Virus record (IMG/VR): IMGVR_UViG_3300025141_000536
Span: 1-29,078 of that record
Direction: 5' to 3' (one strand)
DNA length: 29,078 nucleotides
From: a virus
A program made the translations under genes and the position numbers. Shown here one piece after another: positions 5,235-27,215 of the stretch (its first letter is position 1; every line of letters starts with the position of its first letter). Below the pieces are notes generated by a model. The model saw only the letters and a list, made by a program, of their open reading frames with translations. It was not told where the DNA came from and searched no databases.

Positions 5235-5261
5235 ATGGCCGATTCTAAAACCGACATTATC
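5235..5261 (+). repeat. N-terminal coding repeat, HNH copy (MADSKTDII)
   Basis: The first nine codons of the HNH endonuclease encode MADSKTDII, identical to the first nine residues of tail tubular protein A at 5692-5718. Six of the eight codons after ATG differ synonymously, including TCT versus AGC for serine, so the two copies have long been separate at the DNA level. See the paired entry. Confidence 0.9.
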
Positions 5262-5702
5262 AGAGAGGACTATCTCAAAAGACATAGAGAAGCCTCTGCT
5301 AGAGACCATGCCAAGCACATTGACGCAAGAAGGAAAAAGAAAAGAGAATATCAACAAGCGCACAGAGAGAAGATGCTTGAAACATCAATAGCTTGGAATA
5401 AAGAGAATTACAGTAAGGTTAAGTGCGCTTCGAGGAAGCACCAAGCAAAAATAAGAGCAATAAAAAGAAAGTCCATTGTGCTTTTAAACAAATTAGAAAA
5501 GCAGTTTATAGATGGGATCTATAGGGACTGTAGTAGATTAAATGAAATATTTGGAATGCAGGTTTTTGAAATAGATCACACAATTCCAATGACTAAGGGG
5601 GGTCTTCATTCCCCTAATAATTTACAGATTGTTCCTAAGAGCTGGAATAGATCTAAGCACAATAGTCATAGCAATAGATGGGAGGTTCCTTATGGCGGAT
5701 AG
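5235..5702 (+). CDS. HNH endonuclease inserted before tail tubular protein A
   Basis: A 155-residue protein with a Lys/Arg-rich N-terminal half (about residues 14-80), likely DNA-binding, and a C-terminal HNH nuclease motif: FEIDHTIPMTKGGLHSPNN near residues 111-129 (catalytic His after Asp114, central Asn128/129), then WNRSKHN near 137-143. HNH enzymes nick or cut DNA and act as free-standing homing endonucleases in phages. Its first nine residues copy the start of the downstream tail gene, suggesting insertion at that start. The coding sequence is visibly more A/T-rich than its neighbours. Its last 11 bases overlap the tail gene and contain that gene's ribosome site. No Cys zinc-binding pairs were seen. 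Confidence 0.9.
   Translation: MADSKTDIIREDYLKRHREASARDHAKHIDARRKKKREYQQAHREKMLETSIAWNKENYSKVKCASRKHQAKIRAIKRKSIVLLNKLEKQFIDGIYRDCSRLNEIFGMQVFEIDHTIPMTKGGLHSPNNLQIVPKSWNRSKHNSHSNRWEVPYGG
5680..5685 (+). promoter_or_regulatory. Strong ribosome binding site for tail tubular protein A
   Basis: GGGAGG lies 6 bases before the ATG at 5692, inside the last codons of the HNH gene. It fixes the tail tubular protein A start at 5692 rather than at the upstream in-frame ATG at 5629. Confidence 0.75.
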
Positions 5703-5718
5703 CAAGACGGACATCATA
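5692..5718 (+). repeat. N-terminal coding repeat, tail tubular A copy
   Basis: These codons encode MADSKTDII, identical in protein but not in DNA to the first nine codons of the HNH gene at 5235-5261. The sequences diverge completely after Ile9 (REDY versus NLAA). Confidence 0.9.
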
Positions 5719-6300
5719 AATCTCGCGGCAACGTATATTTCCGAAGCTAGGGCAATTGACCCAGAGACGGATACGGGAGAAACGCCACGCACACTTAACT
5801 TTTTATACGATCACGCTCGCAAGAAGGTGCTTAGGGCACATACTTGGGGTTGCGCGAAAGTAGACGTACAGATTTCATCGGATAGCACCGCACCGTTATT
5901 CAAATGGGCGAGAGCATATACGCTCCCCGTGGAATGGGTACGCAATGTTAGTATCTCTGAAACGGACATAGACTTCATCGAGTGTCCGAGATACGAAATC
6001 AAGGGTAGAAAGCTTCTAACAGACGAAGCATCCCCACTTAATTTAACTTACATCCAAGATCTTACAAATGTAGGAGATATGGATGACATGCTAATAGAGG
6101 GCATTGCACGTCGCTTGGCGGCAGATGCTTGCTTGGCTAGAACGGATTGGCTCCCCCTCTTGGACTTCTTGGAGCAAAAGTACGAAGTCTATATAGAAGA
6201 AGCGAAGTTCACCGACACAATGGAGCGCAGACGGGCACTACCGGATGGATATGTTCATTCTGGTTGGGATACGGCGCACTTTGGGGGAGGGTCTCCTTAA
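5692..6300 (+). CDS. Tail tubular protein A (T7 gp11-like)
   Basis: A 202-residue protein matching the gp11-like family that forms the dodecameric gatekeeper ring between portal and tail nozzle. Typical features are the N-terminal helix DIINLAATYISEARAI, the segment RTLNFLYDHARKKVLRAHTW near residues 33-52, the aromatic KWARAYTLPVEW near 69-80, and a C-terminal helix beginning IEGIARRLAADACLARTD. The start at 5692 is chosen because GGGAGG precedes it by 6 bases and its N-terminus matches the copied one in the HNH gene. Its stop overlaps the next start (TAATG). Confidence 0.9.
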   Translation: MADSKTDIINLAATYISEARAIDPETDTGETPRTLNFLYDHARKKVLRAHTWGCAKVDVQISSDSTAPLFKWARAYTLPVEWVRNVSISETDIDFIECPRYEIKGRKLLTDEASPLNLTYIQDLTNVGDMDDMLIEGIARRLAADACLARTDWLPLLDFLEQKYEVYIEEAKFTDTMERRRALPDGYVHSGWDTAHFGGGSP

Positions 6301-8822
6301 TGTCTCTTTGGCCGAACATCAATCGCTTCAACGCGGGTGAGTGGAGCCCTAAGCTAGATGGCAGATGGGACTTGGATGATTATTCTGCCGCGCTAAGAAA
6401 GTGCGATGGATTCATTCCGCTCAAATATGGTCCCGCAGAAAGAACCACGGGTACGGAGTACGTAGCCGAAACCAAGGACAGCACTAAGTCTAGTCGCTTG
6501 GTTCGCTTTCGGTTTGACTCTACTACGAACTACATCATGGAGTTCGGGCAGCTTTACATCCGTTGGTACGAAGGAGGGGACACGCCTTCTCAACTATCAG
6601 CGGGAACACCCTCGGCGTGGGCAACAACCACGGCATACGTAATTGGGGATCTCGTAGAAGAAAGCGGGACTAACTACTATTGCCTAGAGGCCCATACTAG
6701 CGGCACCTTCGCCACAGACTTAGCCGCAAACAAGTGGTACACCCTAACCGGATCTATTTATGAAATTCCAACGACTTACACAGCACCCGATGTTTTTGAC
6801 TTGCAATTCGTTCAAATCAACGACATTGTTTACATTGTACACAAAGATTATCCAGTTAGAAAGTTATCTCGCGTTGGAGCAACTAATTGGCAAATAGCCG
6901 ATGTCGAGTGGGACTTCCCGCCGTTGCTAGATCCAAATGCAACAACCGATACCCTTACCTATACGGGCACAACAACCGTTGGGGCAAGTGGAACGCTAGC
7001 GAACTCTAACACGCTATTCGCCGGAACCTCTGATGATGTTGGGCGTTACTATGCCATCACGCACACCCGCGAGGCACAAAAGATTGTCTTCGATGACGCT
7101 GGTGGTGCTGGCGTGGCGGATGACGGACTAGATGCCGACATATCAGAGGGCGCCCATGCTGTTCCCGTTAAGGGCGCTTGGTCGTTAGTTACCGCTGGGG
7201 TGTGGGACGGGGAGTTAACCATAAGCAAGAGAGAGGTTGGAACGACTCCTTGGTTTGAGGTTTGGACCGGAACCAGTCGATACACTTCCTCTGGCGGCGC
7301 GAATTTTGCCATAAGTGGAACAGAAGACTTAGAAAATTACGAATATACGGTTTGGTTTCAACACGACACAACGGCTCCGGCTGATGCGTCCGTAAATTTC
7401 AATGTAGATTCGGTGGACATAACCGGAGTTGTCAAGATCACCACGCACAGCACTACATCATCGGCAACCGCTGAAGTCATAGTTGCCCTTGAGGCGTCTT
7501 CTTCCACGGTGGCGACCAAACTATGGACAGAGGGGGCATTTAGTGCAGTGCGCGGGTATCCGTCTGCTGTCACCTTCTTTGAAACACGCCTTATCTTTGG
7601 CGGGACGGACTACAGGAAGCAACAGATTTGGTTATCCCAAACGGACAACTTCGAGCATTTTGGGGTTTCAACTCCAGATATACTAGCAACGGATTCGATT
7701 ACGTATCAATTATCCGCAGTCGAGCAAAACCGCATCAAGTGGATTCGGGCGCAAAAGTTCTTGTTAATTGGCACTGAGGGCGAGGAGTATTCCTTACGAG
7801 GTGCAGATGGAAATGCACTTAGTCCAACCACGCAACCACTAGCGACAATTGAAAGCACCGAGGGGAGCAAAGGCATACGTCCTACAATTGTAGGAGATTC
7901 GCTTTTGTTTTGGAGTCGAGACGGTAGAAAGCTCCACGAACTTTTATTCACAATTAGCGATGACGGATTTGGCACTTCGGATTTAACAAAGTTGGCCGAG
8001 CACATTACCGACCCAACGGTAGTGCAAAGCGCGTACACTCAAGACCCCTATCGGATTTTGTGGAGTGTTCGCTCGAACGGAACCCTTTTGGGCTTGGTGT
8101 ACAACCGCTTAGACGAAGTAATTGCTTGGTTTACTCGCAACACGCTTGGCACCTTTGAGAGCGTTGAGTCGATTTACGGCGACCCAGAGGACGAAGTTTG
8201 GTTTGTAGTGAATCGCACCATCAACGGGGCAACCGTTAGGTACGTCGAGCGTTTTAGTTTCCGCCAAACCGCCAAAGAGGACATGCGGTACAGCGATTGC
8301 GGTACGGTTTATTCTGGCGTGTCAACAACGACCATAGGGGGACTTACTCACCTAGAGGGCGAAGAGGTTGTCGTATTGGCAGACGGAAACGTAGAGACTA
8401 ACAAAACGGTTTCTAGTGGGCAAATCACCCTAGACAACGCATCAACCAAAGCAGCAGTTGGATTGGCATACGATTCGGAAATCGAAACCACCAAGATTGA
8501 CGCTCCTGCGGGTGACGGTGTTAGCCGAGGAAAGCCCAAGCGCAGTACGCATGTAGTAATTGGATTCGACAACACCCTAGGGGGAGAGGTCGGCACTAGG
8601 TGGAATGAACCCAGTGGCGAAGAAAAGGAACAACTTAATGAAATTACATTTAGGGACACCGCAGATGTAATGGATTCATCCCCCGATTTGTTCTCCGGCG
8701 AGAAGATTTGGGAACTCCCAGCGGGCCACCAAAAGAACCCTCGCATAGTCTACAAGCAAACCCAACCTCTACCTAGTACAGTTTTGTACACAATCCCACA
8801 AATTACACCAAAGGGTCAATAA
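6300..8822 (+). CDS. Tail tubular protein B / tail nozzle (T7 gp12-like)
   Basis: An 840-residue protein with the family N-terminus NRFNAGEWSPKLDGRWDLDD, then GFIPLKYGPAERTTGTEYVA and FGQLYIRWY. Six copies form the nozzle at the end of the podovirus tail, through which DNA leaves. ATG 6300 is chosen because it starts the conserved N-terminus, sits in a TAATG junction with the preceding stop and follows GGGGGAGG (6282-6289). The upstream in-frame extension overlaps tail tubular A. An inserted 42-residue module (about residues 105-146, SAWATTTAY ... TFATDLAA) is closely related to one in the tailspike at 22290 and resembles small chitin-binding-like (CBM5/12) modules. Confidence 0.92.
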   Translation: MSLWPNINRFNAGEWSPKLDGRWDLDDYSAALRKCDGFIPLKYGPAERTTGTEYVAETKDSTKSSRLVRFRFDSTTNYIMEFGQLYIRWYEGGDTPSQLSAGTPSAWATTTAYVIGDLVEESGTNYYCLEAHTSGTFATDLAANKWYTLTGSIYEIPTTYTAPDVFDLQFVQINDIVYIVHKDYPVRKLSRVGATNWQIADVEWDFPPLLDPNATTDTLTYTGTTTVGASGTLANSNTLFAGTSDDVGRYYAITHTREAQKIVFDDAGGAGVADDGLDADISEGAHAVPVKGAWSLVTAGVWDGELTISKREVGTTPWFEVWTGTSRYTSSGGANFAISGTEDLENYEYTVWFQHDTTAPADASVNFNVDSVDITGVVKITTHSTTSSATAEVIVALEASSSTVATKLWTEGAFSAVRGYPSAVTFFETRLIFGGTDYRKQQIWLSQTDNFEHFGVSTPDILATDSITYQLSAVEQNRIKWIRAQKFLLIGTEGEEYSLRGADGNALSPTTQPLATIESTEGSKGIRPTIVGDSLLFWSRDGRKLHELLFTISDDGFGTSDLTKLAEHITDPTVVQSAYTQDPYRILWSVRSNGTLLGLVYNRLDEVIAWFTRNTLGTFESVESIYGDPEDEVWFVVNRTINGATVRYVERFSFRQTAKEDMRYSDCGTVYSGVSTTTIGGLTHLEGEEVVVLADGNVETNKTVSSGQITLDNASTKAAVGLAYDSEIETTKIDAPAGDGVSRGKPKRSTHVVIGFDNTLGGEVGTRWNEPSGEEKEQLNEITFRDTADVMDSSPDLFSGEKIWELPAGHQKNPRIVYKQTQPLPSTVLYTIPQITPKGQ
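6612..6737 (+). repeat. Shared 42-residue module, copy in tail nozzle protein
   Basis: This segment encodes SAWATTTAYVIGDLVEES and ends AHTSGTFATDLAANKW. Thirty of its 42 residues are identical to the segment at 23883-24008 in the first tailspike, with no gaps. The Trp/Tyr/Gly-Asp-Val pattern resembles CBM5/12-type carbohydrate-binding modules; binding is inferred. Confidence 0.8.
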
Positions 8823-10872: not shown

Positions 10873-13800
10873 TGGGATTGGACATAGACAAGTTTTATAC
10901 GAGCAAAGGAGAGCAAAACGACGTTCGTATTGATGACATTGAAGATAAAGACTTCCTTGCGGCACTCAACAAGGAACGCCTTCTTCAAAGCTACTCAACC
11001 CAAGATACGCTAGGGGACCAAGATTACGGCACCCTTTCGGCTTCGATGGGGTACAGTAGCAACGAAGAAGCCGACTTCGCTGCGATACAGGCCAACATTC
11101 AGGCCCGCAAGGAGTCCGAGGAAATGGCCCGCAATCGTTATGAAGAAAGCGGTCGTGCAAAGTCTTGGGCGGCAATGACATCCAACACTAAAGACATACC
11201 CGTTGTTGGAACAGCGGTTAGGCTCTTAGAGAAGTTTGACAAAATGGCAACCCTAATGGCTAGCTCTAGTGCGTCTATGGTGGCATCGGGTGCGATTGGT
11301 TTAACCGAACAAGTTGCGGCAAGCGGGTCGGTTGGAACTGGTGCCCCTGGGATTATTCGCAAAGACGGGAAAACCGCGCCAGAGGGAGCCAAGGAATTAG
11401 TGGCCCCGCTTCGGGCAATGGCCGATGACATTCCAGAGAACCTAGGGATAGACCCAGATTTAGCGGCAACTGCGCTAGGACAAACCCTTCAAGTTGCATC
11501 CTCTTTGGGTACTGGCTTCGTGGGGATTGCCACAAATCCCGCGTTGGGGTTTTCAATGTTTGAGGGGTTGGCCTTTGATGAAGCGGTTCGGGAGTACGAT
11601 GCCCACGCGAAGAATCCAAACGCCGCCGATAGGTTGAAGTTCGGTCTTAGTGTAGCCCTTCCTCAATCGGCATTAGACTTTGCTATTGGAGGTGAAGCAA
11701 CCTTCGCTAGAATTATTGCGGGCGCCAACCCAACAGTTCGCAAAGAACTCCTAAAGCGCTTAGCCTTTGGTATTCCCAAGGAAGGGTTCACGGAGGGGGC
11801 GCAAAAGGAAATAATGACTTTCATGGCGAACCGAGAGTTTGACCAAGACAGGGAGCACTTTGATGATGAATTTTTCCATTCTGTTTTATTAGGGATGGCG
11901 GGTGCTGGCGTAATTGGACCCATTGTGTCGCTGCCAACCATCGCTAATGCTAACACAAACCAAGTGCTCGACAATGAGAATTTTGGCAAGCAAGCGTTTA
12001 ATACCATAGCAAAGACGCTCACCAAGGAAGAGTTCGTAGCAAACGCCGGAGACAACCCAGCGGCAAAGACAATACTAGAGGCTGCATATGATGGCGATGA
12101 AGGGGCTCAAAAGGCCGTCATGGACATCTTTGAGCAAGGCAAGGCCGAGGCAGAGACCAAGACCCCACCCAAGGCAGACAAAGAAGTTAAGCGATTGGTT
12201 GAGTCTATTGAAAAAATAGACGATGAGATCGCCGCTGCTACTTCTGAAATCGAACCCAATTTGGATGTTGTTGAGGATCAATTTGACATGCCATTGGCTA
12301 CGAGTAACCCTAGAGATCCAAATGTAGATATTACGCAAGCCAATCAAGCTAATCGTAAAGTCGCAAAAGTTCATGCAGATTTACAGGCGGAACTCAGGGA
12401 AGTTTTAGATCAACTTGAAATATCAACAGAACCAAATGCTAAATTTGAAAAGGAAGCAGAGCTAACAGACGCCCAAGAGAGAACTGTTTCTAAAATACTA
12501 AATCACATTAGTGGTCAGGGCAAAAAACTTACCCCCAAGCAGTTTGCTGTCTTGAAGGAGCGCGTCCGTGGAGACAAGCGAGTGGAAGCCGCAATTGCTA
12601 AAGGTGCCCAAAAGGTCGAGCGCGCAGTTGCAAAAAAAGAAAGGGAGTTATTTGCCAAAGAAGAAAAGATTGCCAACCTCAAGGAAGCTAAGGTTGAAGC
12701 AATCAATAATCTCAAACACAACTTCGGCAAGAAGATCGACAAGTTACGGGATAACTTCGCCAAGAGGGTTGAGAAACTAAAAGAAGAAGCCAAACGCCGT
12801 AAAGTTGCCGATAAGGAAAAGTTCGTAGAAGAACGCCTAGATCTCATTGAGGCATCGCGTCAACTCCAAGAAATGGTTGATTCTCTGCCCGTGTCTATTC
12901 GCGGCAAGTTTAAGGGATTCGCCAATTTAAGCAAAGTAAAGACCCTCAAGGGCAAAGAGTCCTTCTTGGAACGCGCCGCCGAACGGGTTAACAAGTTATT
13001 CGATGCTGAGTTTCGCCGTAACAAGAGGTCTAAGCTAAACGACACGATACGCCGCAACACCAAGGGCTCCTTTGAGAAGAGGACAAAACGCATTGGTAAC
13101 GAAGCAGCAGACATTTTTACGGAGATTAAGGCCATTGGCAAGCGTGATTCTCTTGATAATCTCCAACGCCTAGAAGAGTTGTTGGAAGAACCCAACATGA
13201 GCGAAGAGAAGGCATTGGCTCTCAAGACCATCTTTAGCGTGTTCAACAACATTAAGGGCGCGGATGCGAAACGACTCAATCAAGCCCTTGCTATTGCCGC
13301 TCAAATAGAGCAAAGTGGATTAGATTTCCGCAAGAAGTTTAAGAAAAAAGAAGCCAAGAGGTTAGAAGGAAAGCGACAGGTTGTGATTGATGCAACGGTT
13401 GGAGATAAGGGAATCCTAACCGAGAAGGAACTCAAGGCCAAGGAAGAGAAAAAGGGCTTCGTTAAGAAGGCAATAAGCAATGCAAATGATTGGGCGTTCA
13501 ACCGCAATGACGCCCTAGAACAACTTTTAGAGAACATCCGAACCGACAAGGGTGAGCGTTTTGAGGGGGATTTACACGATGCATTTACGAAAATGGCGTT
13601 CGATGCAACCCAAGAGTTTCACACTCGACAAGGTAAAGATTTCCAAGAACTAGGGGATGCCATGTTTGAGATATTCGAACGTGATGGGAAAACCAAGAAG
13701 CAAGCTCAAAAAGCAATGGGCGACTTCGAAACCACGAATGACAACCACGGCATAAAGTTCGCGCCCGAAGGCGGGCAAGTAATTGATGTTCCCCTTACTA

Positions 13801-17501: not shown

Positions 17502-17807
17502 ATGGCAACTGTAGTCGCAAACAGAATCACTAGTGCGAGCAGAATCACGAACGCCAATAGGATTACTAGCGCTTCGTCTGTTCCCGTTAGTGGGCTTTAT
17601 CTAACTTGGGCAAATGTAAACTCCGAGTTGGTTCGAGCGGCTACAGAGAACGGTCACTTGGCCGACATGAACGGCATGAGCAATTACATATTCCACGACG
17701 CAGCGGCCTTTAATCTCGCGGATGGGGCGGCATACAATGCGGCAATATCGGCAGAAACCCTTGCTATATCCGACATGGACACTTACGCAGCAGCATACAC
17801 ACCATAA
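17502..17807 (+). CDS. Small protein with N-terminal hexapeptide repeats
   Basis: A 101-residue protein of unknown function. Residues 8-25 are three tandem hexapeptides, RITSAS-RITNAN-RITSAS. The remainder is Ala/Asn-rich (NSELVRAATENGHLADMNGM, then YNAAISAETLAISDMDTYAA). It lies in the late block between a structural gene and the first exported-type gene, which begins one base after its stop. Confidence 0.5.
   Translation: MATVVANRITSASRITNANRITSASSVPVSGLYLTWANVNSELVRAATENGHLADMNGMSNYIFHDAAAFNLADGAAYNAAISAETLAISDMDTYAAAYTP
17523..17576 (+). repeat. Tandem hexapeptide-coding repeat (x3)
   Basis: Three 18-base units encode RITSAS, RITNAN and RITSAS. Codons differ between units (AGA, AGA, AGG for Arg; ATC, ATC, ATT for Ile; ACT, ACG, ACT for Thr), so the peptide repeat is better kept than the DNA. 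Confidence 0.7.
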
Positions 17808-17808
17808 A

Positions 17809-18987
17809 ATGAAAAAAACACTACCATTCTTGGCGTTATTGCTAGCGCCTTATACCTTTAGCCAAACCCCCACGCAGGACCAAACCTACGACAGCGAGTG
17901 GGTTGGGGCCGTAACGACGGAGTTAACCATCGCAACTGGTGCCGTTACCCTAACGGCAAGGCTAAACGTCTTCAAGATAGACACCGAGGGTGATGCGGCG
18001 AGCGATGACCTAGACACGATTACCCAAAGTGCTACGGTTCAATCAATCCTTCTCATTACCTCGGAGAACTCAGCTAGAGATGTTGTCTTAAAGGACGGAA
18101 CCGGAAACCTAAACCTAGGCGGAACAGACATTACCCTTGGGGTATCCGAGGATGATTGGGTGGAATTGTTTTACGATGGCACCGAGTGGAATCTTTATTC
18201 AACGCCTCAGTGGTTGTTAGACAGTCACGGGACAAGCATTAGCACCAACACTACGGACATTGCGACGAACGTTAGCAGTATTTCGACCCTTGATACAGAC
18301 AAGATGGAAGAATACGGCAACAAGGGATTGATGACGGTTGACCCCGATAACCTCAATTCTCCGGCAATGACTGCTGATATTACGTTGACTAATACCACAG
18401 TTGACACTGCACCTGGGGCACTCTCTAAGGGCAGACAATACGTTACTTCAGATGCGGATACCTGGGCAGTAATCCTTCCGAGTTCGTCTACTTATCCTAG
18501 GTTCATTTGGAATAAGGACTCAACCAATTCGGTAGACATAGAAATTTCCGGTTCAGGTACGGTTCAAGCGGTTTTAGAACCCGATGCGATTGCGTATTGC
18601 GAGTACATCTTAGCCGATGCAGCTTGGGATATTGAGGTAATCGAGCCCTATGCTAAATCGAACGTCATTACCAAATCTGCAAATTACACCATCGGAACCG
18701 ACACGACAGAGGAAATGTACGGTGGTTACTTCCGAGTTACTTCTGCGGCAACAATTACAGCTCCGGCGGTTCTTGACGGAATGCACTTTACTATTAAAAC
18801 CATAGGAGCAATTGCGGTGTCAGCAGACGTTAACGCATCAGACTTGCAAGTGCTTGACGGAGTTGTCTTGGACGATGGGGATAAGGCAACCAATACTTCA
18901 ACAGCTGGTGACGTTATCACATTCGTTTCATTGGATGATGGGACAGGATGGGATTCTACTTCGAACTCTTGGACAGACGATAGTTAA
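17809..18987 (+). CDS. Exported fibre-like protein with signal peptide
   Basis: A 392-residue protein starting MKKTLPFLALLLAPYTFS: a Lys-Lys n-region, a Leu/Ala core and a likely cleavage site near residues 18-20, as in Sec signal peptides. ATG 17809 is chosen because the upstream in-frame extension lies inside the previous gene and would bury the signal. The mature part is Thr/Ser/Asp-rich with fibre-like motifs (DDWVELFYDGTEWNLYS near 116-132), a short heptad-like region (NTTDIATNVSSISTLDTDK near 146-164) and beta-rich C-terminal segments. Phage fibres normally lack signal peptides, so this is odd. The next gene starts inside its stop (TAATG). Confidence 0.68.
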   Translation: MKKTLPFLALLLAPYTFSQTPTQDQTYDSEWVGAVTTELTIATGAVTLTARLNVFKIDTEGDAASDDLDTITQSATVQSILLITSENSARDVVLKDGTGNLNLGGTDITLGVSEDDWVELFYDGTEWNLYSTPQWLLDSHGTSISTNTTDIATNVSSISTLDTDKMEEYGNKGLMTVDPDNLNSPAMTADITLTNTTVDTAPGALSKGRQYVTSDADTWAVILPSSSTYPRFIWNKDSTNSVDIEISGSGTVQAVLEPDAIAYCEYILADAAWDIEVIEPYAKSNVITKSANYTIGTDTTEEMYGGYFRVTSAATITAPAVLDGMHFTIKTIGAIAVSADVNASDLQVLDGVVLDDGDKATNTSTAGDVITFVSLDDGTGWDSTSNSWTDDS

Positions 18988-19742
18988 TGAAAAGGCTTTT
19001 TGCATTTCTACTTCTATTGGCAATCCCGTTTAATTGCGGGAATGTAACGATAGACATTACACGAGTCATTGCTCGAAAGAATGCGATTACTACTACGCCT
19101 CCTTCGTGGTCCGATGGGCAAAAGGACGTTGCCTCGAACTCAACCAGTTGGGACACGACTTATCCAGCAGCCGTAGAGAATAACGACATTGCTCTTGCGT
19201 ATTTCCAAACGGAAACTCCAGGCAACGCTACGGGAACGCCTCCTAGCGGTTGGACAAAGCTAGATGAAACAGATACTAGCGATGCCACCACGGTTATTTA
19301 TTGGCGTCGATGCGACGGTACAGAGGATGCGCAAGTAGACACTTGGACTAGTCTTTGGGATGCCGGAGAGCGAGGGGTGTCTTTTATTGCTACGTTTAGC
19401 GGATGCGTTACTTCGGGTTCGCCCATTGATGCTTCTGATTATTCGTCTTCGGCAAGCGGAACCTCCAAGAGCCTAGGGGCAATCACAACGACTACGGCGA
19501 ATACGCTTATTGTTGCAGCGATGGGAACAGACCCAGGATCTTCGGGGCAAACTTGCGCTTGGGATAGTCCGGCTACCGAAAGAGTAGATAGCGACATTAC
19601 GCCTTCGGGTGACAATGGAACGCTTGGTATCGTTTGGATAGCAACAGCCCCAAAGGTAGCGGCTGGCTCGCAAACAATCACGGCAACGCTTTCGGCTTCT
19701 GAAGTCGTTGCGGAATCTCTAATAGCTCTTTTACCGGAATGA
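18987..19742 (+). CDS. Exported beta-sandwich protein, function unknown
   Basis: A 251-residue protein starting MKRLFAFLLLLAIPFNCGN, a signal-peptide-like segment. Its Cys does not sit in a standard lipobox. The mature part is Ser/Thr-rich with TPPSGWTKLDETDTSDATTV near residues 82-101 and a late segment TTANTLIVAAMGTDPGSSG, a pattern seen in beta-sandwich adhesin-like proteins of phages and bacteria. It has four or more Cys residues, unusual among its neighbours and compatible with disulphides in an exported protein. It overlaps the previous gene by one base (TAATG) and the next by four (ATGA). No catalytic motif was seen. Confidence 0.62.
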   Translation: MKRLFAFLLLLAIPFNCGNVTIDITRVIARKNAITTTPPSWSDGQKDVASNSTSWDTTYPAAVENNDIALAYFQTETPGNATGTPPSGWTKLDETDTSDATTVIYWRRCDGTEDAQVDTWTSLWDAGERGVSFIATFSGCVTSGSPIDASDYSSSASGTSKSLGAITTTTANTLIVAAMGTDPGSSGQTCAWDSPATERVDSDITPSGDNGTLGIVWIATAPKVAAGSQTITATLSASEVVAESLIALLPE

Positions 19743-21733
19743 GATCAATAATTTTAGTCATACTTTTTTCAACTGCCCAGTTGTTTGGAGCAACCGGAGA
19801 GTTGCCAACAAGCGTTGGAACACCCCTTGAGGCCGCTAACGATACTCAGTTAACGACCGAGCTAGGCAATGCAACTGCGGGTCAACATATCTTACTTACT
19901 GGCTCAAGTTATAGCACTCACCGAACATTAGCCGATGGCATAATGATAATTGGAGATCCGGCGAGCGCCCCAGACATCAATGGGGTTTACACGCTTTCGG
20001 GTGATGACTCTTGGGTGTGGGGTTTAGATTTCGATCACAACACGGGCTCGGTCATTGTTTCGGGTGATAGGGCGAATGTCCAAAGATGTTATTTTTCAAA
20101 CGCTACCAATCGCTCTCCGGTTCGGGTGCAAGATGGTGATGATGTAGTTATTGCCTACAATGAGATTGATAATTGGGGTTCCACTGGGACGTGTGGAGCT
20201 TATCAAGGGATCACTGTTACAACTCCTTCATTGGGTTCAACTGATGGGGCAATCCGAATCGAGGTAGCGTATAATTACCTACACGATCAAGTTGGATATA
20301 ATCCAGAGTCGTGCTCAAATGATGCTGAGTTTATTCAGATTGGACAAACGGGCACAGGTGGCAGGGCGCAAAGCAATGCAGGGGCATACGTGCATCATAA
20401 TTATGTCGTGAATTGTTTAGGCGACAATGAAGGGATGGGGGTTAAGTCTTCAAATGGAGCATTCGAGTACAACCACTTTGACAATGTTCGAGGATTCAAT
20501 AACCGCTTCGGGAATGATAATACATTTACTGGCAACCGAATGGAAAATGTTCTAGGGGGTGGACGCACAAATCGAGGCGGATTGAGAAACCTATCGTTGG
20601 GTGAAGTAACGGATGGGCCTATGCAGGCCGAAGGCGGGACAATGGAAGGCGATGACACTTGGCCTGGAGGGACTCAATACTTTCGTTCTGATACTACCAA
20701 ATTTATAGGAACAGAGGCCACCGGAGGCATTCATGTTGGTGTAACGACAAGCGCAACTTGGACACTAAACGCCCTTGATACGTTGGTTCAAGATACGTCT
20801 TCGACTGTAACGACAGGAACAATGGAGACCAATACTACCGACGATTCCGCCGGAGCCCCATCCCAGTCCGTTCCTACGGCTATAACGCTTACGACGGCAG
20901 ACGTTGGCCCATTGGCGGATAATGAATCGTCTAGTGGCAGCGTATCGCTAACAGGAGAGACGAACTTCGGCTACGCGATCAAGTCTAGCGAGACGGTAGA
21001 TTCGACCATTACAATTTCAAACAACTCAGGGGTTGCGGTATCCGGTTCGATAACTGGGGTATCGGCTCCGTTCTCAATCATCTCAGGCGGGACTATAACT
21101 AGTCTTGCGGATGGTGCCAGTCAAGAGCTTGTTCTTAGATTTACGCCTACGACGGCAGCTCAATCCAATCAAACGATAACGGCAGACATTACAGCTGGAA
21201 CCGATTCGACTTTAGATATAACGGGTGTCGGAGTGACTCTCTTGGTAGGGCTTGGACCTCACGATGCAGACGTAGGAGTGATTGTATCTCCGTTGGTCGA
21301 TCAAGGCGATTACATCAATCAGCCAGCTTATACCCATCTATCTAAAGATGGAGGGATAGCGGCATACGCTGTAACCATAGCGACTTCCGGTTACTACACG
21401 ATCACGCTTAACGTAGATGCTGCCGATACGTCTACCAATTCATATTGGATTTCATTCGATGGAGATCCGGCGGAAACCGACATCTCGGATATTACTAGCT
21501 TCACAACTGGATTCGAGAACAGAACGGCGAACATTAGGGGAACCGGAACCTTCGATGCGCCAGAGTTTGTCCCCAACGAGTGGTTCTTATCAGCGGGAAC
21601 CCACACCTTAGTCTTTAGGGGCAGGGAAAGAGAGTGTGACCTAGACCATTGGACAATCGTTTTGGACGCTGCCCAACAAACTTCTACCTCTGCGAATCGG
21701 GGCCAATCAGTGAGGGCAATAGTTGCGCAATGA
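19739..21733 (+). CDS. Secreted PL6-like polysaccharide lyase
   Basis: A 664-residue multidomain protein. Residues 1-17 (MRSIILVILFSTAQLFG) form a signal peptide. About 20-345 is a right-handed beta-helix resembling polysaccharide lyase family 6 (alginate lyase / chondroitinase B): GMGVKSSNGAFEYN carries a Lys at 236 and NNRFGN an Arg at 256, close to the Lys-Arg spacing of the catalytic pair in that family. Asp229 and Glu231 lie where calcium ligands are expected, and GGGRTNRGGLRN follows at 273-284. About 395-500 resembles an ASH/HYDIN-type immunoglobulin fold; about 505-643 looks like a carbohydrate-binding beta-sandwich. The usual His after Arg is Phe here. This domain order is typical of secreted bacterial enzymes rather than of phage tails. 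It is coupled by ATGA overlaps at both ends. Confidence 0.65.
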   Translation: MRSIILVILFSTAQLFGATGELPTSVGTPLEAANDTQLTTELGNATAGQHILLTGSSYSTHRTLADGIMIIGDPASAPDINGVYTLSGDDSWVWGLDFDHNTGSVIVSGDRANVQRCYFSNATNRSPVRVQDGDDVVIAYNEIDNWGSTGTCGAYQGITVTTPSLGSTDGAIRIEVAYNYLHDQVGYNPESCSNDAEFIQIGQTGTGGRAQSNAGAYVHHNYVVNCLGDNEGMGVKSSNGAFEYNHFDNVRGFNNRFGNDNTFTGNRMENVLGGGRTNRGGLRNLSLGEVTDGPMQAEGGTMEGDDTWPGGTQYFRSDTTKFIGTEATGGIHVGVTTSATWTLNALDTLVQDTSSTVTTGTMETNTTDDSAGAPSQSVPTAITLTTADVGPLADNESSSGSVSLTGETNFGYAIKSSETVDSTITISNNSGVAVSGSITGVSAPFSIISGGTITSLADGASQELVLRFTPTTAAQSNQTITADITAGTDSTLDITGVGVTLLVGLGPHDADVGVIVSPLVDQGDYINQPAYTHLSKDGGIAAYAVTIATSGYYTITLNVDAADTSTNSYWISFDGDPAETDISDITSFTTGFENRTANIRGTGTFDAPEFVPNEWFLSAGTHTLVFRGRERECDLDHWTIVLDAAQQTSTSANRGQSVRAIVAQ

Positions 21734-22065
21734 AGTGGTTGGTCGTATTTCTTTTTACCTCCATTGCGTTAGGCGCCCCATCGTTGGAGGTCTTTTGGAC
21801 GGACAACTCTGACAACGAAAACGCCTTCTTGGTTGAACGTAAGGTGGGTACGGGGAGGTTTGTGTTATTGGACGCCGTAAATAGAAACGTCACCAAGTAC
21901 GTAGATAAAGGAGTGAAGTACAACGTGTTATACACTTACCGCATACGTGCTCGCAGGGAAGAAAGGTTTAGTCCTTATTCGAACGAAGCCAAGGCAACCG
22001 TTAGCGAAGACGGCGAAGACAAAATAAACGCTCCAACGGGGCTAGGAATTAGAATAATCAAATGA
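21730..22065 (+). CDS. Secreted fibronectin type III protein
   Basis: A 111-residue protein starting MKWLVVFLFTSIALGAPS, with a typical signal peptide and an A-x-A-like site near residues 13-16. The mature part is a single fibronectin type III domain: SLEVFWTDNSDNENAFLVER near 18-37, then a Tyr-x-Tyr-Arg-x-Arg-Ala strand (TYRIRARREE) and PYSNEAKATV. FnIII domains mediate protein or polysaccharide contacts. ATG 21730 is chosen because it overlaps the preceding TGA (ATGA) and gives the signal peptide directly; the longer in-frame upstream start lies within the lyase gene. The next gene starts in another ATGA overlap. Confidence 0.72.
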   Translation: MKWLVVFLFTSIALGAPSLEVFWTDNSDNENAFLVERKVGTGRFVLLDAVNRNVTKYVDKGVKYNVLYTYRIRARREERFSPYSNEAKATVSEDGEDKINAPTGLGIRIIK

Positions 22066-22274
22066 AAAATCCACTAAACGATAATAAGGGAAACTTCTCT
22101 AGCACTAGAGTGGGCATGATGCTTTGCGTTATGTCGGGGTGTTACATTGCAATTGCTGGCCTGCACTTGGGGTCGAACCTACTAGAGTTAGCCCCTATGT
22201 CTTTGGGGTTAATCGGGGCGGGCTTTACGGCTAAGGTTTCGCAGAAACACGCAGAAAACAATTCGTCTGAATAA
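22062..22274 (+). CDS. Small two-helix membrane protein, holin-like
   Basis: A 70-residue protein with two hydrophobic segments at about residues 17-37 (VGMMLCVMSGCYIAIAGLHL) and 42-56 (ELAPMSLGLIGAGFTA), a polar N-terminus with NDNKGNFSSTR, and a charged tail (KVSQKHAENNSSE). This small two-helix pattern ending in a Lys/Gln/His/Glu tail is common among phage holin-like proteins. It is the second holin candidate here; the other is at 15558. It is coupled by ATGA overlap to the FnIII gene, so it would be made together with the exported proteins. No endolysin was found nearby. Confidence 0.6.
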   Translation: MKNPLNDNKGNFSSTRVGMMLCVMSGCYIAIAGLHLGSNLLELAPMSLGLIGAGFTAKVSQKHAENNSSE

Positions 22275-22289
22275 TCAACCAATCATCGC

Positions 22290-24878
22290 ATGTCAACAGG
22301 AACTAGTTTAAATAGAGCGCAAGTCAATGGGGCTGGAGCCGCAACGCCGATTGCATTTAACCGCAAGGTCTTTGCCGCAACGGACATCGTTGGCGAAGAG
22401 GAAATTGTTGCCACGGGGGTTGTTCGGGACTTAGTGCAAGGAACAGACTTTAGCGTTACGGGAGCCGGAAACACAAGTACGGGTGTTACAATAACGCCCC
22501 TTATCGTTATACCCTCTGGCAATAGGTGGACATTTTGGAGCGAGCAAGCCAACACGCAAAACTCTGTTTACACGGAAAACGATAGGTTCCCCGCTAAGAC
22601 CACGGAGTATGCGTTAGACAAAGTAACCATTGGGGTGCAAGATAACGAGCGCGTGGGAGAGCTAGCCTTGCGCTATCCCGATACCGAAGAAATCGGAACC
22701 AATACGCAGCTTCCAACTAAAAGCGTTCGGGCAAATACCGCGCTTACTTTTGACGCAAACGGGGAGCCTAGCTTTTCACCCGTTGGTAGTTCTGCAACCT
22801 CTGCGGTTCGTCTTGCCGAAAGCGTGGCAACTGCGGGGCAAACAGTAATTGCCACACCGTCACATACAACGGGGATAAACAACGTTTCTATTTATATAAA
22901 TGGGGCCAAGCTGTTAGCGACTGATTTCGTTGACAGTACAAGCACGACCGTTACCCTAGACGAACCCCTTTTCTTGGGTGACACGATTAGAGTCGAAGTA
23001 AATGAAGTCCAAGATGTGCTTTCTAGTGTTGCCGCTGGGTCGGTTTCCTTTACTCAAACCGGAACGGGTGCCGTTGCAACCAACCTTCAAGCAAGGAACG
23101 AAGAAAGGGTTTCCGTAAAAGACTTCGGAGCAACTGGTGATGGGACCACGGATGACTCAGTGGCGATACAGCTCGCTATAGATGCCGCTAATTACGGTGA
23201 ACGTAGCTTACGCATACCAGCGGGCGAGTATTACATCGGCACGACCTCATTGGTTATTAACGGCCCAATCCGCATTTATGGTGAAGGAATGGGGCAAGCG
23301 TATGCTGATAGCTTTGGAGCGCTTTGCACGACTATTAGATATGTAGGAAGCGATGCAGCAGTAAAGATAAACACGGGCATTAGCAAGAGTACCCTTGGAT
23401 TTGTGCTAGAAAACATTTCTGTTAGCGGTTACGCCACTGGTACGGCTACTGCCACGGGTTCTTACGGTATTCGTTGCGGTGCTGATACGGGAAGCAACCT
23501 CGCGGCACAGGGGCAAATGAGAAATGTACGCTGCGAGGGATTCACGGTTGCTAACTTGCACTACATTAATGCACAAGGGATTGAGTGCTATGATTGTCGT
23601 TGCCAATTTGGAACCGGATCTGGCTTGCTCATTGAGGGAGGGGCAACCAGTGGCGGTGGCAACCGTTCGAATGGATTTACCCATTGCTTATTCAAGCAAA
23701 ACAAAATCGGTGTTTCGCTCCATGAGGGGGGAAATATTCGATTTTCCTTGTGTCACTTTGAACAAAACGACGAAGAGGGAGTGCATATTCAGCGGCAAGC
23801 TTCAAGCGGTTCGTATTCCTTTAATGATTTTTACTTCGACCGTTGCCACATTGAGAATAATCAAGACGACCCCAATACGGGTAGTGCTTGGGCTACATCT
23901 ACAGCTTATGTTCGTGGGGATTTTGTTAATGAATCTAGCTTGCTTTATAAGTGCGTAACCGCCCATACCTCAGGAACCTTCGCGACGGATCTCGCTGCGG
24001 GCGATTGGATTTTAGTCAAGTATGCGGCACAGTTTTTGATCGACACATCCCTTAATACGTCAACGGGTGGGGCTCGCGTTTTTATTGATGGGGGGCGCTG
24101 GATTGCCCAAGGAACCGAGGCAAACGGAATTAGGAGCAATAGACTTTGGGTTTGCAATCACGGTACATTGGTAAAGACTCACGCTCGACCTAATTTGTTT
24201 TCTTATCCAGAGGGTGCCGTTGAACCTTCCGAGGACAATCAAAGCGCAGTCATTCGGGTTGTTGACAATTTTGATCCTTGGACAACTGCGGCGACTCCCA
24301 CCGCTGGCAACAAGCGTCCAATCACGGGTGCTAGTGTTGAGGATTTTTGGTCTATGCCATACGGGGGGGCGGATACTGGCGTTGGGAACGCTTCGGTTCT
24401 TACTGATTCCGGCCAATCTTGGACAACCGATGAATTGGTTGGGTACACCGTTAGAAATATAACCGATGGTTCCGAGGGGTTAATTACCGCGAATACAGCT
24501 ACGGTGGTTACTGCCACTCTTTCGGGCGGAACCGATGACGATTGGGATGTAGATGACTCATATGTTATTATTACATCCGGTGGCGCGATGACATATGAGC
24601 ACGAAAACATTGGAACGGGGGACCGCTATTGGGGCACTAACGAAGATGTTTACCTGGTTAATTCCTCCAATGCTTCAAACATCTTTCGTGGTGGGTTTTC
24701 TTCTTACACCGATGCCGCTGCGGTTGGATTTTCCATAGACGGTGACGGAAAGATATTAAACAACCAAATGAGCGCCAACACAAACACCCCATCTGGAGCA
24801 ACGGCATACGAAATGCCCCTATACAACGTAAATGGCACACTATTGGGGTACGTCCCTATTTACGGATCTCAGTGGTAA
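22290..24878 (+). CDS. Tailspike with pectate-lyase-like beta-helix
   Basis: An 862-residue protein. The N-terminal ~165 residues resemble the virion-binding head of podovirus fibres (FNRKVFAATDIVGEEE, VQGTDFSVTGAG, then DRFPAKTTEYALDKVTIGVQ). A small beta domain follows (about 185-250). From about 272 the sequence VSVKDFGATGDGTTDDSVAI is the signature start of pectate-lyase-superfamily beta-helices, which cut or bind surface polysaccharides. A carbohydrate-binding-like module sits at about 532-573 and is shared with the nozzle protein; a module with LTDSGQSWTTDELVGYTVRN lies near 710-729. Unlike the four genes upstream of 22062, it has no signal peptide. It follows the holin-like gene by 15 bases with no Shine-Dalgarno sequence. 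Confidence 0.85.
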   Translation: MSTGTSLNRAQVNGAGAATPIAFNRKVFAATDIVGEEEIVATGVVRDLVQGTDFSVTGAGNTSTGVTITPLIVIPSGNRWTFWSEQANTQNSVYTENDRFPAKTTEYALDKVTIGVQDNERVGELALRYPDTEEIGTNTQLPTKSVRANTALTFDANGEPSFSPVGSSATSAVRLAESVATAGQTVIATPSHTTGINNVSIYINGAKLLATDFVDSTSTTVTLDEPLFLGDTIRVEVNEVQDVLSSVAAGSVSFTQTGTGAVATNLQARNEERVSVKDFGATGDGTTDDSVAIQLAIDAANYGERSLRIPAGEYYIGTTSLVINGPIRIYGEGMGQAYADSFGALCTTIRYVGSDAAVKINTGISKSTLGFVLENISVSGYATGTATATGSYGIRCGADTGSNLAAQGQMRNVRCEGFTVANLHYINAQGIECYDCRCQFGTGSGLLIEGGATSGGGNRSNGFTHCLFKQNKIGVSLHEGGNIRFSLCHFEQNDEEGVHIQRQASSGSYSFNDFYFDRCHIENNQDDPNTGSAWATSTAYVRGDFVNESSLLYKCVTAHTSGTFATDLAAGDWILVKYAAQFLIDTSLNTSTGGARVFIDGGRWIAQGTEANGIRSNRLWVCNHGTLVKTHARPNLFSYPEGAVEPSEDNQSAVIRVVDNFDPWTTAATPTAGNKRPITGASVEDFWSMPYGGADTGVGNASVLTDSGQSWTTDELVGYTVRNITDGSEGLITANTATVVTATLSGGTDDDWDVDDSYVIITSGGAMTYEHENIGTGDRYWGTNEDVYLVNSSNASNIFRGGFSSYTDAAAVGFSIDGDGKILNNQMSANTNTPSGATAYEMPLYNVNGTLLGYVPIYGSQW
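23883..24008 (+). repeat. Shared 42-residue module, copy in tailspike
   Basis: This segment encodes SAWATSTAYVRGDFVNESS and ends AHTSGTFATDLAAGDW, matching 30 of 42 residues of the module at 6612-6737 in the tail nozzle gene. It interrupts or caps the beta-helix region of the tailspike. Confidence 0.8.
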
Positions 24879-24896
24879 TAATTTAACCCAATAACA

Positions 24897-26261
24897 ATGG
24901 CAGAACAATCCAACAACAGAAAACTAGGCAACAAAGCAACCGAATGGGTTAGTGTTAAGTCATTTGGGGCCACTGGTGATGGGGTCACAGACGACTCAGC
25001 GGCGATACAGGCAGCCCTAGACGCCCACGATCATGTTTATATCCCCAATGGAACCTATTTGGTTAAAGACCTTTCATTAAACTCTTTCCAAATATTAGAG
25101 TTTGAGTCTGAAAACGCTATATTCAAGGGCGTTATCTCAACCGACGATGTTTTTTCAACAACGGGATCTTTGGCTAGAATTAGAATTTTCGGGGGCACTA
25201 TAAGGGATTGCGGGAAAGGTTGGTATCACACTGGAAACTCAGCCCTTGCTTCTTGCTCTATTCATAGAACCGTTTTCCGTGACTGCACGTATGGGAACGA
25301 CTTATCCACTGCGGTAAACTGCATTTGGGATAACGTCCAATTCGGAACCAATGGAGGGGCGGATAACATAGATTACGGCCTTTACTTCCGAAGCGACGGT
25401 AGTGGACAAACCAATGCCAACCACATCCGAGAGTGTGTTTTCTTTTTCTTCAAAGAAAAGGGGATAACCTTTGAGGATTCTACCATTTCTAAGGGTGGAA
25501 ATGATATTAGTGGTTGTTGGTTTGAGGATAGTACGGGTATCCCTATTTATGTGGGGGGCGGAACCAAGCAGTTAAATATTCACAACACTTGCTACTTTGA
25601 AACCAACGGGGGAACATCTAAACCTGATATTAAAATCGAAGCGGTTTTAGCTGCAATAAATGAAATACATATTGATGGCAATGAGTTCGCCACTCCCAAC
25701 ACCGACCAAACCGAACGCATTGAGTGTATAGGAAATGCCTATTTTGATGCTAGAGACAACTCTGTAACGCTCTCTACGGGTGATGTTTTTGCAACATTTG
25801 CGGGTGCGTTTGGAAATCACTCTAAGCTATTTGATAACTACCTTAATGCCACTGGAGCGGGTAGTTATGAGTCTCGGTTGTTTACTAGTTCGGGAAGCGA
25901 TTTAGTTTCTTGGTCGGTTAGTGTGGGTTCTGGTTTCGTAACAGAAGACACTAGACCTCACTCTCACCTAGAGGGTGGTGAGTCGTTTGCAGTTTACACC
26001 CTAGCTAACGACGCCACCCCAAGCGTCGAGGGAATGAAGCTCTGCAAGACTGGGGGCACCACAACTATTACCGACTTCGATGATGGAAGGGTTGGCCAAA
26101 CTATATCAATTTTATCTGAACACGCCGTTACAATAACGGATGGAGCGCCAATAATCCTAAACGGGTCTGCTAACTTCGTAATGGCTGCGGCTGACACCCT
26201 CACACTTACTATGTTTAACGACCAAATATGGCAAGAGGTTTCAAGAACGGTTAACCTCTAA
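24897..26261 (+). CDS. Second tailspike-like protein, no virion anchor
   Basis: A 454-residue protein whose beta-helix begins almost at once: WVSVKSFGATGDGVTDDSAA near residues 17-36, then repeating coils with NTCYFETNGG and similar Asn/Gly turns to about 340. The C-terminus (about 350-454) ends in a hydrophobic beta region (TISILSEHAVTITDG, then LTLTMFNDQIWQEVSRTV) typical of the end of phage spike proteins. It lacks the head-binding N-terminus of the tailspike before it, so it may attach to that spike or act free. The leader CCCAATAACA has no ribosome site. It ends 12 bases before a convergent minus-strand gene. Confidence 0.8.
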   Translation: MAEQSNNRKLGNKATEWVSVKSFGATGDGVTDDSAAIQAALDAHDHVYIPNGTYLVKDLSLNSFQILEFESENAIFKGVISTDDVFSTTGSLARIRIFGGTIRDCGKGWYHTGNSALASCSIHRTVFRDCTYGNDLSTAVNCIWDNVQFGTNGGADNIDYGLYFRSDGSGQTNANHIRECVFFFFKEKGITFEDSTISKGGNDISGCWFEDSTGIPIYVGGGTKQLNIHNTCYFETNGGTSKPDIKIEAVLAAINEIHIDGNEFATPNTDQTERIECIGNAYFDARDNSVTLSTGDVFATFAGAFGNHSKLFDNYLNATGAGSYESRLFTSSGSDLVSWSVSVGSGFVTEDTRPHSHLEGGESFAVYTLANDATPSVEGMKLCKTGGTTTITDFDDGRVGQTISILSEHAVTITDGAPIILNGSANFVMAAADTLTLTMFNDQIWQEVSRTVNL

Positions 26262-26273
26262 GTCTTATCGTAA

Positions 26274-26570
26274 TCATGTCCTAACGTACACGCCGCTATT
26301 GTCCCTCACTGAGACCTTCTCTATGAGGGAATCGCGCTTGAGTTCTGTGAATCTACCTGAGATGTTGTTTAGGCCCGTGTCCAAAATGGAGGCGGCCTCT
26401 CTGCAACTTAATCCCCATTTGCTTTCCCCAATCATGTAAAGGATTTCTTCACGCATCCTTGCTTTGGCTCCAGACTCTTCTATTCTCCTATTGGCCTCTT
26501 GGCTTTGTTCGTTCCCTCCATGTCGAGAGCTGCAAACATCCCATAGGCCCATTTGTATAGATTTGTTCAT
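26274..26570 (-). CDS. Winged-helix DNA-binding protein
   Basis: A 98-residue protein with a C-terminal winged helix at about residues 40-98: EEILYMIGESKWGLSCREAA, then NNISGRFTELKRDSLIEKVS as recognition helix and wing. The pattern ISGRFxELxRDxLIEK is common in small phage DNA-binding proteins. It could regulate phage genes or help DNA processing; I cannot tell which. The N-terminal 35 residues are polar and probably flexible. It starts in a TAATG overlap with the endonuclease VII gene on the same strand, so the two are co-translated. Its 3' part contains a strong inverted repeat. Confidence 0.7.
   Translation of the reverse strand: MNKSIQMGLWDVCSSRHGGNEQSQEANRRIEESGAKARMREEILYMIGESKWGLSCREAASILDTGLNNISGRFTELKRDSLIEKVSVRDNSGVYVRT
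26302..26330. terminator. Inverted repeat at the convergent gene junction
   Basis: TCCCTCA (26302-26308) pairs with TGAGGGA (26324-26330), and inside it GAGA (26311-26314) pairs with TCTC (26318-26321) around a 3-base loop. The two stems are separated by a 2x2 mismatch. It lies 41 bases past the tailspike stop, inside the 3' end of the convergent winged-helix gene. No T run follows on either strand, so a terminator role is only possible. Confidence 0.35.
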
Positions 26571-27055
26571 TATGTTTTGTTGTTTAGCTTCTTAAATAAC
26601 TTAATCCTTTGTTCTTCGTTTCGGGGAGCAAAGGCTAGTGGTATCCCCAAGTCGTGCTCCATTTGTTCAAGGCGTTCCTTTTGCTCCTTGGCGTTGAGCT
26701 TCTTAAACTCAATTAGTTCGCTCTTGCGCTTGGATGGGTGCCAGTCTGCGTTTCTGTATTTCTCTAGCTGCTCTAGTGAAGCATCCCCCCAAACGTAATC
26801 TGATACCGCTGGAAATGAAAAATGAAAATCAGTCCAACTCGTACCCGTTCGCACCCTCGCATTCTCTAGTTTACCAATGGCTATATTGCACCAATTGCAA
26901 ATGACGCCACGCACTTTGTCCTTGTAGGGCTTCATGTGGGCGTGGTCGAGGCATGGCTTCTTGCAATCTTGTCCACAGAATGCGCATTTCCCGCCCTGTG
27001 CTTTTAACATCTCCTCTCTGTATTGTTTTAATTCACTTTGTTTTAATTTCCTCAT
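26570..27055 (-). CDS. Recombination endonuclease VII-like nuclease
   Basis: A 161-residue protein of the endonuclease VII family (T4 gp49 type), which resolves branched DNA such as Holliday junctions and clears it for packaging. Zinc-binding and catalytic residues are visible: CAFC at 24-27, LDHAH at 36-40 (His-rich ββα-metal core), VRGVICNWCN at 48-57 with the second Cys pair, then GKLEN. A charged C-terminal helical region follows (about 95-161). ATG 27055 is chosen because the family sequence begins there; an earlier frame start at 27121 only reads through sequence that encodes a different, truncated copy in another frame. The gene is more A/T-rich than the structural genes. Confidence 0.87.
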   Translation of the reverse strand: MRKLKQSELKQYREEMLKAQGGKCAFCGQDCKKPCLDHAHMKPYKDKVRGVICNWCNIAIGKLENARVRTGTSWTDFHFSFPAVSDYVWGDASLEQLEKYRNADWHPSKRKSELIEFKKLNAKEQKERLEQMEHDLGIPLAFAPRNEEQRIKLFKKLNNKT

Positions 27056-27062
27056 AAGACAT

Positions 27063-27215
27063 TCAGGGTTTTGTAATGAATTTGTATATGTTTTTCTTAC
27101 AATCTTGCCCACAAAACGCACACTTGCCCCCTTGTTTTTCCAGCACTTCCTCGCGATACTTGGCTATTTGGGGTTGTTTAAGTTTTTCATATCCTATCGT
27201 ACTTAATTGCTCCAT
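27063..27215 (-). pseudogene. Truncated endonuclease VII N-terminal fragment
   Basis: A 50-residue frame directly upstream of endonuclease VII. It reads EKLKQPQIAKYREEVLEKQG and then GKCAFCGQDCKK, and ends abruptly NIYKFITKP. Over 30 residues (LKQ to CKK) 22 match the N-terminus of the intact gene, including the first Cys pair. The DHxH core and second Cys pair are missing, so it cannot be an active nuclease alone. Within the 14 identical residues QGGKCAFCGQDCKK, 10 codons differ, so it is not a recent duplication. It is probably a relic of a second endonuclease VII allele left by recombination. Confidence 0.7.

Follow-up and report, generated by a model that had tools for sequence, protein, structure and literature searches.

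A phage gene module for a putative spike, lectin and enzyme that occurs with and without predicted signal peptides

In tailed phages, spikes and fibres are regarded as cytoplasmic components of the virion. Some described systems resemble individual components of the locus analysed here. In the two-component branched adhesins of DT57C (LtfA/LtfB) and G7C (gp66/gp63.1), a fibre is combined with a partner that has its own binding domain (PMC4728585). The lipoprotein Llp of phage T5 keeps phage from the receptor and, in addition, reduces how much phage adsorbs to cell fragments, and superinfection-exclusion proteins are described as being made early (PMC9586334). For the isolated verrucophage P8625, no signal peptide at all was reported (PMC4642752). 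A search of the open-access literature, preprints excluded, found no description of a phage with exported spikes or exported spike modules.

Here we analysed a stretch of 29,078 bases from an IMG/VR virus record (the window), which is part of a podovirus genome and has PHROG matches to a head-tail adaptor, a major head protein, tail proteins and an internal virion protein. Flanked by virion structural genes on one side and a tailspike gene on the other are four genes, A to D, that appear to encode a spike, a lectin-like partner and an enzyme together with a small fourth protein, each beginning with a predicted signal peptide. As in the branched adhesins, the fibre and its partner are encoded by adjacent genes, and the partner B of this family has a short conserved N-terminal peptide that could serve in docking; unlike here, the DT57C and G7C proteins are virion parts without signal peptides, and A-B binding in the present family is a prediction. 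Similarly, Llp is an exported phage-made protein able to keep phage off the receptor, but it is a small lipoprotein, whereas the window encodes a multi-gene, virion-type set of spike, lectin and enzyme without a lipobox. Llp and the branched adhesins are precedents for parts of this module, and neither matches the whole.

All four genes lie on the plus strand and are real, translationally coupled genes with exact coordinates. Gene A (17809..18987; 392 aa) encodes a signal peptide and a spike- or fibre-like protein that ends in a conserved C-terminal domain (A-CTD), and its ATG at 17809 is separated by a single base from the preceding stop, which ends at 17807. Gene B (18987..19742; 251 aa) starts within a TAATG overlap and encodes a signal peptide, a docking-like motif and a beta-sandwich of a kind shared with the B protein of the signal-less locus L065 (E 2.6e-20). 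Gene C (19739..21733; 664 aa) encodes a signal peptide, a beta-helix-type, PL6-like region, a choice-of-anchor-D/ASH-like domain and a C-terminal beta domain, and is followed by gene D (21730..22065; 111 aa), with a signal peptide and an FnIII-like domain, and by a gene for a 70-aa membrane protein (22062..22274, plus strand) that is coupled to D. The starts of C, D and the 22062 gene each fall within an ATGA overlap. The 1-4 base stop-start junctions from which a reading of the sequence alone (the sequence-only reading) had proposed one operon-like cassette were confirmed. Downstream, also on the plus strand, are tailspike S1 (22290..24878), which has a homologue in the same place in the signal-less relatives L075 and L063, and a second tailspike, S2 (24897..26261). 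The L075 locus has the same gene order. The GC content of the cassette matches that of the phage, and tRNA and Rfam scans of the window gave no match.

Signal peptides were called with a home-made, heuristic rule for n-, h- and c-regions. By this rule the Sec-type pattern is present on A, B, C and D, as had been proposed for the genes starting at 17809, 18987, 19739 and 21730, with an n-region charge of +1 or +2, a best 8-residue hydropathy of 2.6-3.4 and small residues at -3 and -1. The predicted peptides are MKKTLPFLALLLAPYTFS followed by Q in A (17809..17862), MKRLFAFLLLLAIPFNCG followed by N in B (18987..19040) and MRSIILVILFSTAQLFGA followed by T in C (19739..19792), all on the plus strand with inferred cleavage sites, while D begins with MKWLVVFLFTSIALG followed by AP. 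No other virion-block gene of the window shows the pattern, including S1 and S2, which had been read as tailspikes without a signal peptide and indeed prove to be so. The one other hydrophobic N-terminus, at ORF 5629, is uncharged and stems from a wrong start, since that gene really begins at 5692. The rule called 25 of 416 (6%) other genes of the same loci and, when the N-termini of the window were shuffled with their composition kept, 0.3% of the shuffles of A, 12% of those of B and 2% of those of C; given this low background, four signal peptides in a row are far beyond chance. A lipobox is absent from the cleavage sites of window A, B and C. Among A to C of the family, only the A protein of L004 carries a canonical one (LTAC), so that the spike there would be envelope-tethered.

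Comparison with relatives makes a much stronger case for these signal peptides than a prediction on any one protein. Gene A and alignments of the A-CTD, used as queries, gathered some 40 independent contigs from phages plus a single bacterial genome that carry the A-CTD, and the module is present in podoviruses as well as in several phage backgrounds unrelated to one another. In nearly all loci that reach past A, A is followed by B, and many also have a third gene C. About half of the relatives have the signal-peptide version of the module; in the family, the A proteins that carry a signal peptide number 24, that of the window included, and the run of signal-peptide genes that was to be sought in related phages was found in these loci. 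When A carries a signal peptide, so does B in 20 of 21 loci and C in all 19; when A lacks one, it is found on none of 17 B and none of 8 C proteins. Three of the C proteins were counted as positive by eye, their n-region being uncharged, and by the strict rule the C counts become 16 of 19 and 0 of 8. Fisher values of 6e-10 (A/B) and 5e-7 (A/C) are descriptive, because the loci are related by descent and independence is overstated. On the A-CTD tree the signal-peptide state changes about five times, with at least three changes forced by strong branches, and in the two to four independent pairs that the tree offers, B and C almost always switch together with A. The sole exception is L009 (6230-7997), with a signal peptide on A and on the preceding gene and none on B. 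Two phages, those of L022 and L025, have two complete A-B-C cassettes each, and in the second one (L083:2611-7684 and L085:873-4500) every gene again has a signal peptide. That dozens of related phages have these signals either on the whole block or not at all suggests that some phages have the infected cell export proteins that others keep inside.

Two further arrangements were seen among these loci. The longest run of signal-peptide genes comprises six in a row (L070:5032-11067), and in L028 a 387-aa ORF with a signal peptide lies directly behind the head genes (12476-13639) of a phage that is otherwise free of signal peptides.

The two versions of the module also occur at the same locus. 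The window, L059, L063 and L075 have internal virion proteins and tailspike S1 in common, and the last three carry A-B-C in the same place as the window without signal peptides. Conversely, the same podovirus family and locus have signal peptides in the window, in L070 and in L068/L069, which share the podovirus background of the window and have them on A, B and C. Spikes and fibres are expected to lack a signal peptide; the signal-less relatives do lack it, whereas window A to D have one. In alignments of window B with L065 B, of L068 C with L062/L067 C and of L068 A with L067 A, the signal peptide is a pure N-terminal extension. A start-codon artefact was considered and dropped, as the starts of B and C in the signal-less loci lie in, or close to, the last part of the gene before them, which leaves no room for a hidden signal peptide upstream.

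In principle the hydrophobic N-termini might not be signal peptides at all; cytoplasmic fibres could use them as uncleaved anchors or to attach to the virion. The calls are heuristic, and a strict [AVSG]xA cleavage site is absent from 22 of the 63 proteins called positive; the other 41 do contain it, homologues at the same locus lack the segment and are complete, and the B motif described next begins at the expected mature N-terminus. We therefore consider uncleaved anchors very unlikely.

A short motif of the approximate form hhxVIARKxA-GG (~VIARKxA) is common to the B proteins. In proteins without a signal peptide it lies 1-8 residues after the initiator Met, and in those with one it lies directly behind the predicted cleavage site (NVTIDITRVIARKNA in the window). 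In window B this mature N-terminal motif, TRVIARKNA (19059..19085, plus strand), is common to the signal-less homologues, where it follows the Met. The motif block scores 502, compared with 348 +/- 11 for shuffled N-termini, or 14 SD above. The simplest reading of these sequences would be that the signal peptide is removed and that the motif has one and the same function in B proteins made with or without it, probably docking to a partner such as A. This conserved N-terminal motif is described here as new. The B proteins of relatives are mostly lectin-like beta-sandwiches, such as the LamG domain in L002 (1.9e-36), and no relatives of window B were found among isolate phages or in a pattern scan. 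As a separate observation, the B protein of L009 keeps a SIARKKA motif at its start although it has no signal peptide.

The hallmark of the module is the A-CTD (112 aa; 18649..18984, plus strand), for which an AF2 model built from 41 sequences reached pLDDT 92. Among PDB structures, Foldseek ranked the capsid spike of Pseudomonas phage Pa223 first (9ny6; E 1.2e-5, prob 1.00, TMq 0.65), ahead of a baseplate chain of phage KP1. Among predicted viral proteins, 186 match the model at E < 1e-3, several of them named tail fibre, so the fold likeness to Pa223 is one that many predicted phage fibre proteins share. The Pa223 spike differs in that A of the window and of 23 relatives bears a signal peptide and that virion attachment is only putative here. 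Judged by this modelled fold, A is a virion-type spike or fibre protein that bears a predicted export signal.

This fold also bears on the suggestion, made in the sequence-only reading, that bacterial exported proteins had been acquired as cargo or lysogenic-conversion genes. The enzyme-plus-Ig architecture of C does look like that of bacterial secreted lyases, but the virion-spike fold of A removes most of the support for a bacterial source, the gene order is common to the signal-less relatives, the GC content is that of the phage, and the A domain is almost confined to phage contigs. For example, a first scan of bacterial genomes with the A1 query gave no match, and a wider alignment of the A domain had a single matching genome in the bacterial collection, where the domain lies in a phage-like region and has no signal peptide. 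The same genome was again the only match among 388 genomes of the phylum of Cerasicoccus frondis. No A-B pair with signal peptides was found on bacterial chromosomes outside prophages in the genomes scanned, and no A-CTD was found in isolate phages. Bacterial cargo thus becomes a highly improbable origin. Beyond the sequence-only reading, what is new is the signal-less version at the same locus, the docking-like motif of B and the virion-spike fold of A; because of these the proteins look re-targeted, not foreign.

The main rival is that A, B and C are exported to fold with disulphides or Ca2+ in the periplasm and join virions once the inner membrane collapses at lysis. It would fit the capsid-spike-like fold of the A-CTD, the signal-less versions in the same virion-gene locus and the spike-like domains kept in A, which are also compatible with later attachment to virions; in T4, fibres are able to join complete particles when lysates are mixed. 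Cysteines point the same way. A Cys pair on neighbouring strands of the A-CTD (CxY...GWYC) occurs in 13 of 24 proteins with a signal peptide and in 0 of 18 without, mostly in one clade plus a few others, and mature A has more Cys when a signal peptide is present (p 0.013), with a trend only for B and C (p ~0.09). Moreover, the L068 C homologue in mycobacteriophage Halley, which adjoins lysin A, is annotated as a minor tail protein. Against this, close relatives manage without a signal peptide, so export is not required for the fold, the A protein of L004 carries a lipobox, and the literature search found no phage that builds spikes in this way. We regard periplasmic maturation as rather unlikely. 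The Cys pair, the Cys enrichment and the L004 lipobox also fit a real envelope address, in favour of the re-targeting proposed below.

The remaining genes encode C, a variable candidate enzyme, and two small proteins. The single PDB match of C is to the PL6 structure 6qps (20291..20587, plus strand; E 1.8, weak), and the alignment places a Lys (GVKSS) and an Arg (NNRFG) at the positions of the known catalytic pair. C differs from PL6 lyases in that it has no match to the Pfam PL6 profile, has extra Ig-like and beta domains and lies in a phage. The earlier assignment of C as a PL6-like lyase thus keeps the Lys/Arg alignment and lacks a profile match, leaving a PL6-like nature weakly supported. 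An Ig-like domain of choice-of-anchor D or ASH type follows (20936..21232, plus strand; E 0.0018 and E 9e-5, both below curated cut-offs). As a query, window C found no relative in viral contigs or isolate phages, and its AF2 model, built from it alone (pLDDT 33), was left out of the analysis. The C proteins of relatives are variable and include beta-helix proteins, one pectate-lyase-like protein, heparinase-type and PcRGLX-like traces and phrog_34846, a family that occurs also among mycobacteriophage minor tail proteins. D had been called an FnIII protein, and while it matches PHROG structural families (E ~3e-5), its Pfam fn3 match (E 0.066, 13.9 bits) does not reach the gathering score of 25; the L026 cassette also ends with a D-like gene that bears a signal peptide and is FnIII-like by eye. 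The 22062 gene had been read as holin-like and coupled to the cassette. The ATGA coupling is present, but family searches including Pfam and PHROG found no holin family and no family at all, and its product has one clear TM segment. Homologues of this gene sit after C in the signal-peptide-bearing relatives L068/L069 and L070. The make-up of binding plus degrading proteins that had been proposed for the cassette is supported, with a matrix as the putative target.

We propose that in this phage and about half of its relatives Sec signal peptides redirect the spike-lectin-enzyme surface module out of the cytoplasm, either into the periplasm or to the exterior of the infected cell, where it would act on host surface glycans, a reading for which we judge the chances to be evenly balanced. 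By inference, the patterns above support export well; from them we also infer signal-peptide cleavage, a complex of A with B, a target that is probably host surface glycans, and a benefit to the phage. A would be the spike or fibre, B a lectin-like partner with a docking-like peptide, C a variable glycan-cleaving enzyme and D a small adhesin-like domain. Produced late alongside the virion genes, A to D would be exported, lose their signal peptides and fold in an oxidising compartment, and A and B, probably with C, would jointly act on host surface glycans. The phage's own receptor would be masked or destroyed on the dying cell and its debris, the surrounding matrix would be loosened, and progeny would be spared loss to self-adsorption. 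In diderm cells, Sec export alone ends at the periplasm; to act at the cell surface, the proteins would require lysis or an additional step.

A narrower possibility is pure superinfection exclusion, in which the exported spike or lectin only plugs or masks the receptor of a still living cell and has no role in release. T5 Llp, an exported lipoprotein, does this (PMC9586334), and the A protein of L004 is a predicted lipoprotein; however, the genes lie in the late virion block, whereas exclusion proteins are described as made early (PMC9586334), and an enzyme belongs to the set. We consider exclusion alone quite unlikely. More broadly than the re-targeting proposed for this locus, and more tentatively, at somewhat less than an even chance, in tailed phages a modular spike-lectin-enzyme operon may change its cellular address all at once, through gain or loss of signal peptides on every gene; in the exported state the infected cell would display or secrete receptor-binding and receptor-destroying proteins before lysis, a prokaryotic counterpart of influenza neuraminidase.

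A conserved module in which all genes gain or lose export signals together implies phage surface machinery deployed outside the virion. It would add a predicted new layer to phage-host interaction, whether receptor masking, debris clearance, matrix clearing or virion assembly after export. Near relatives with and without export form a ready test system, which makes the question testable and the finding of high interest. It also calls for caution with viromes, where carbohydrate enzymes bearing signal peptides need not be auxiliary metabolic genes.

Hosts of the loci are mixed, and a single one is named, Cerasicoccus frondis (Puniceicoccales). Its locus, a signal-less A-B pair in a phage-like region (L030:7159-10672), is the sole named bacterial host clue for the family. 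In the same phylum, 25 of 289 genomes encode distant homologues (~30% identity) of the window major head protein.

Three further features of the window lie outside the cassette. An ORF at 26570-27121 (minus strand) resembles, by eye, an HNH/endonuclease VII recombination endonuclease (CxxC...DHxH pattern). An HNH-like ORF at 5235-5702 and tail protein A (5692-6300) have identical first nine residues, MADSKTDII, with differing codons, and this ORF looks like a homing-type insertion in which the start of tail protein A was copied or mimicked. Tail protein B (6297-8822) and S1 (22290-24878) have in common an inserted module of ~50 residues, AWATTTAYVIGDLV...AHTSGTFATDL (phmmer 1e-13), which probably functions in glycan binding.
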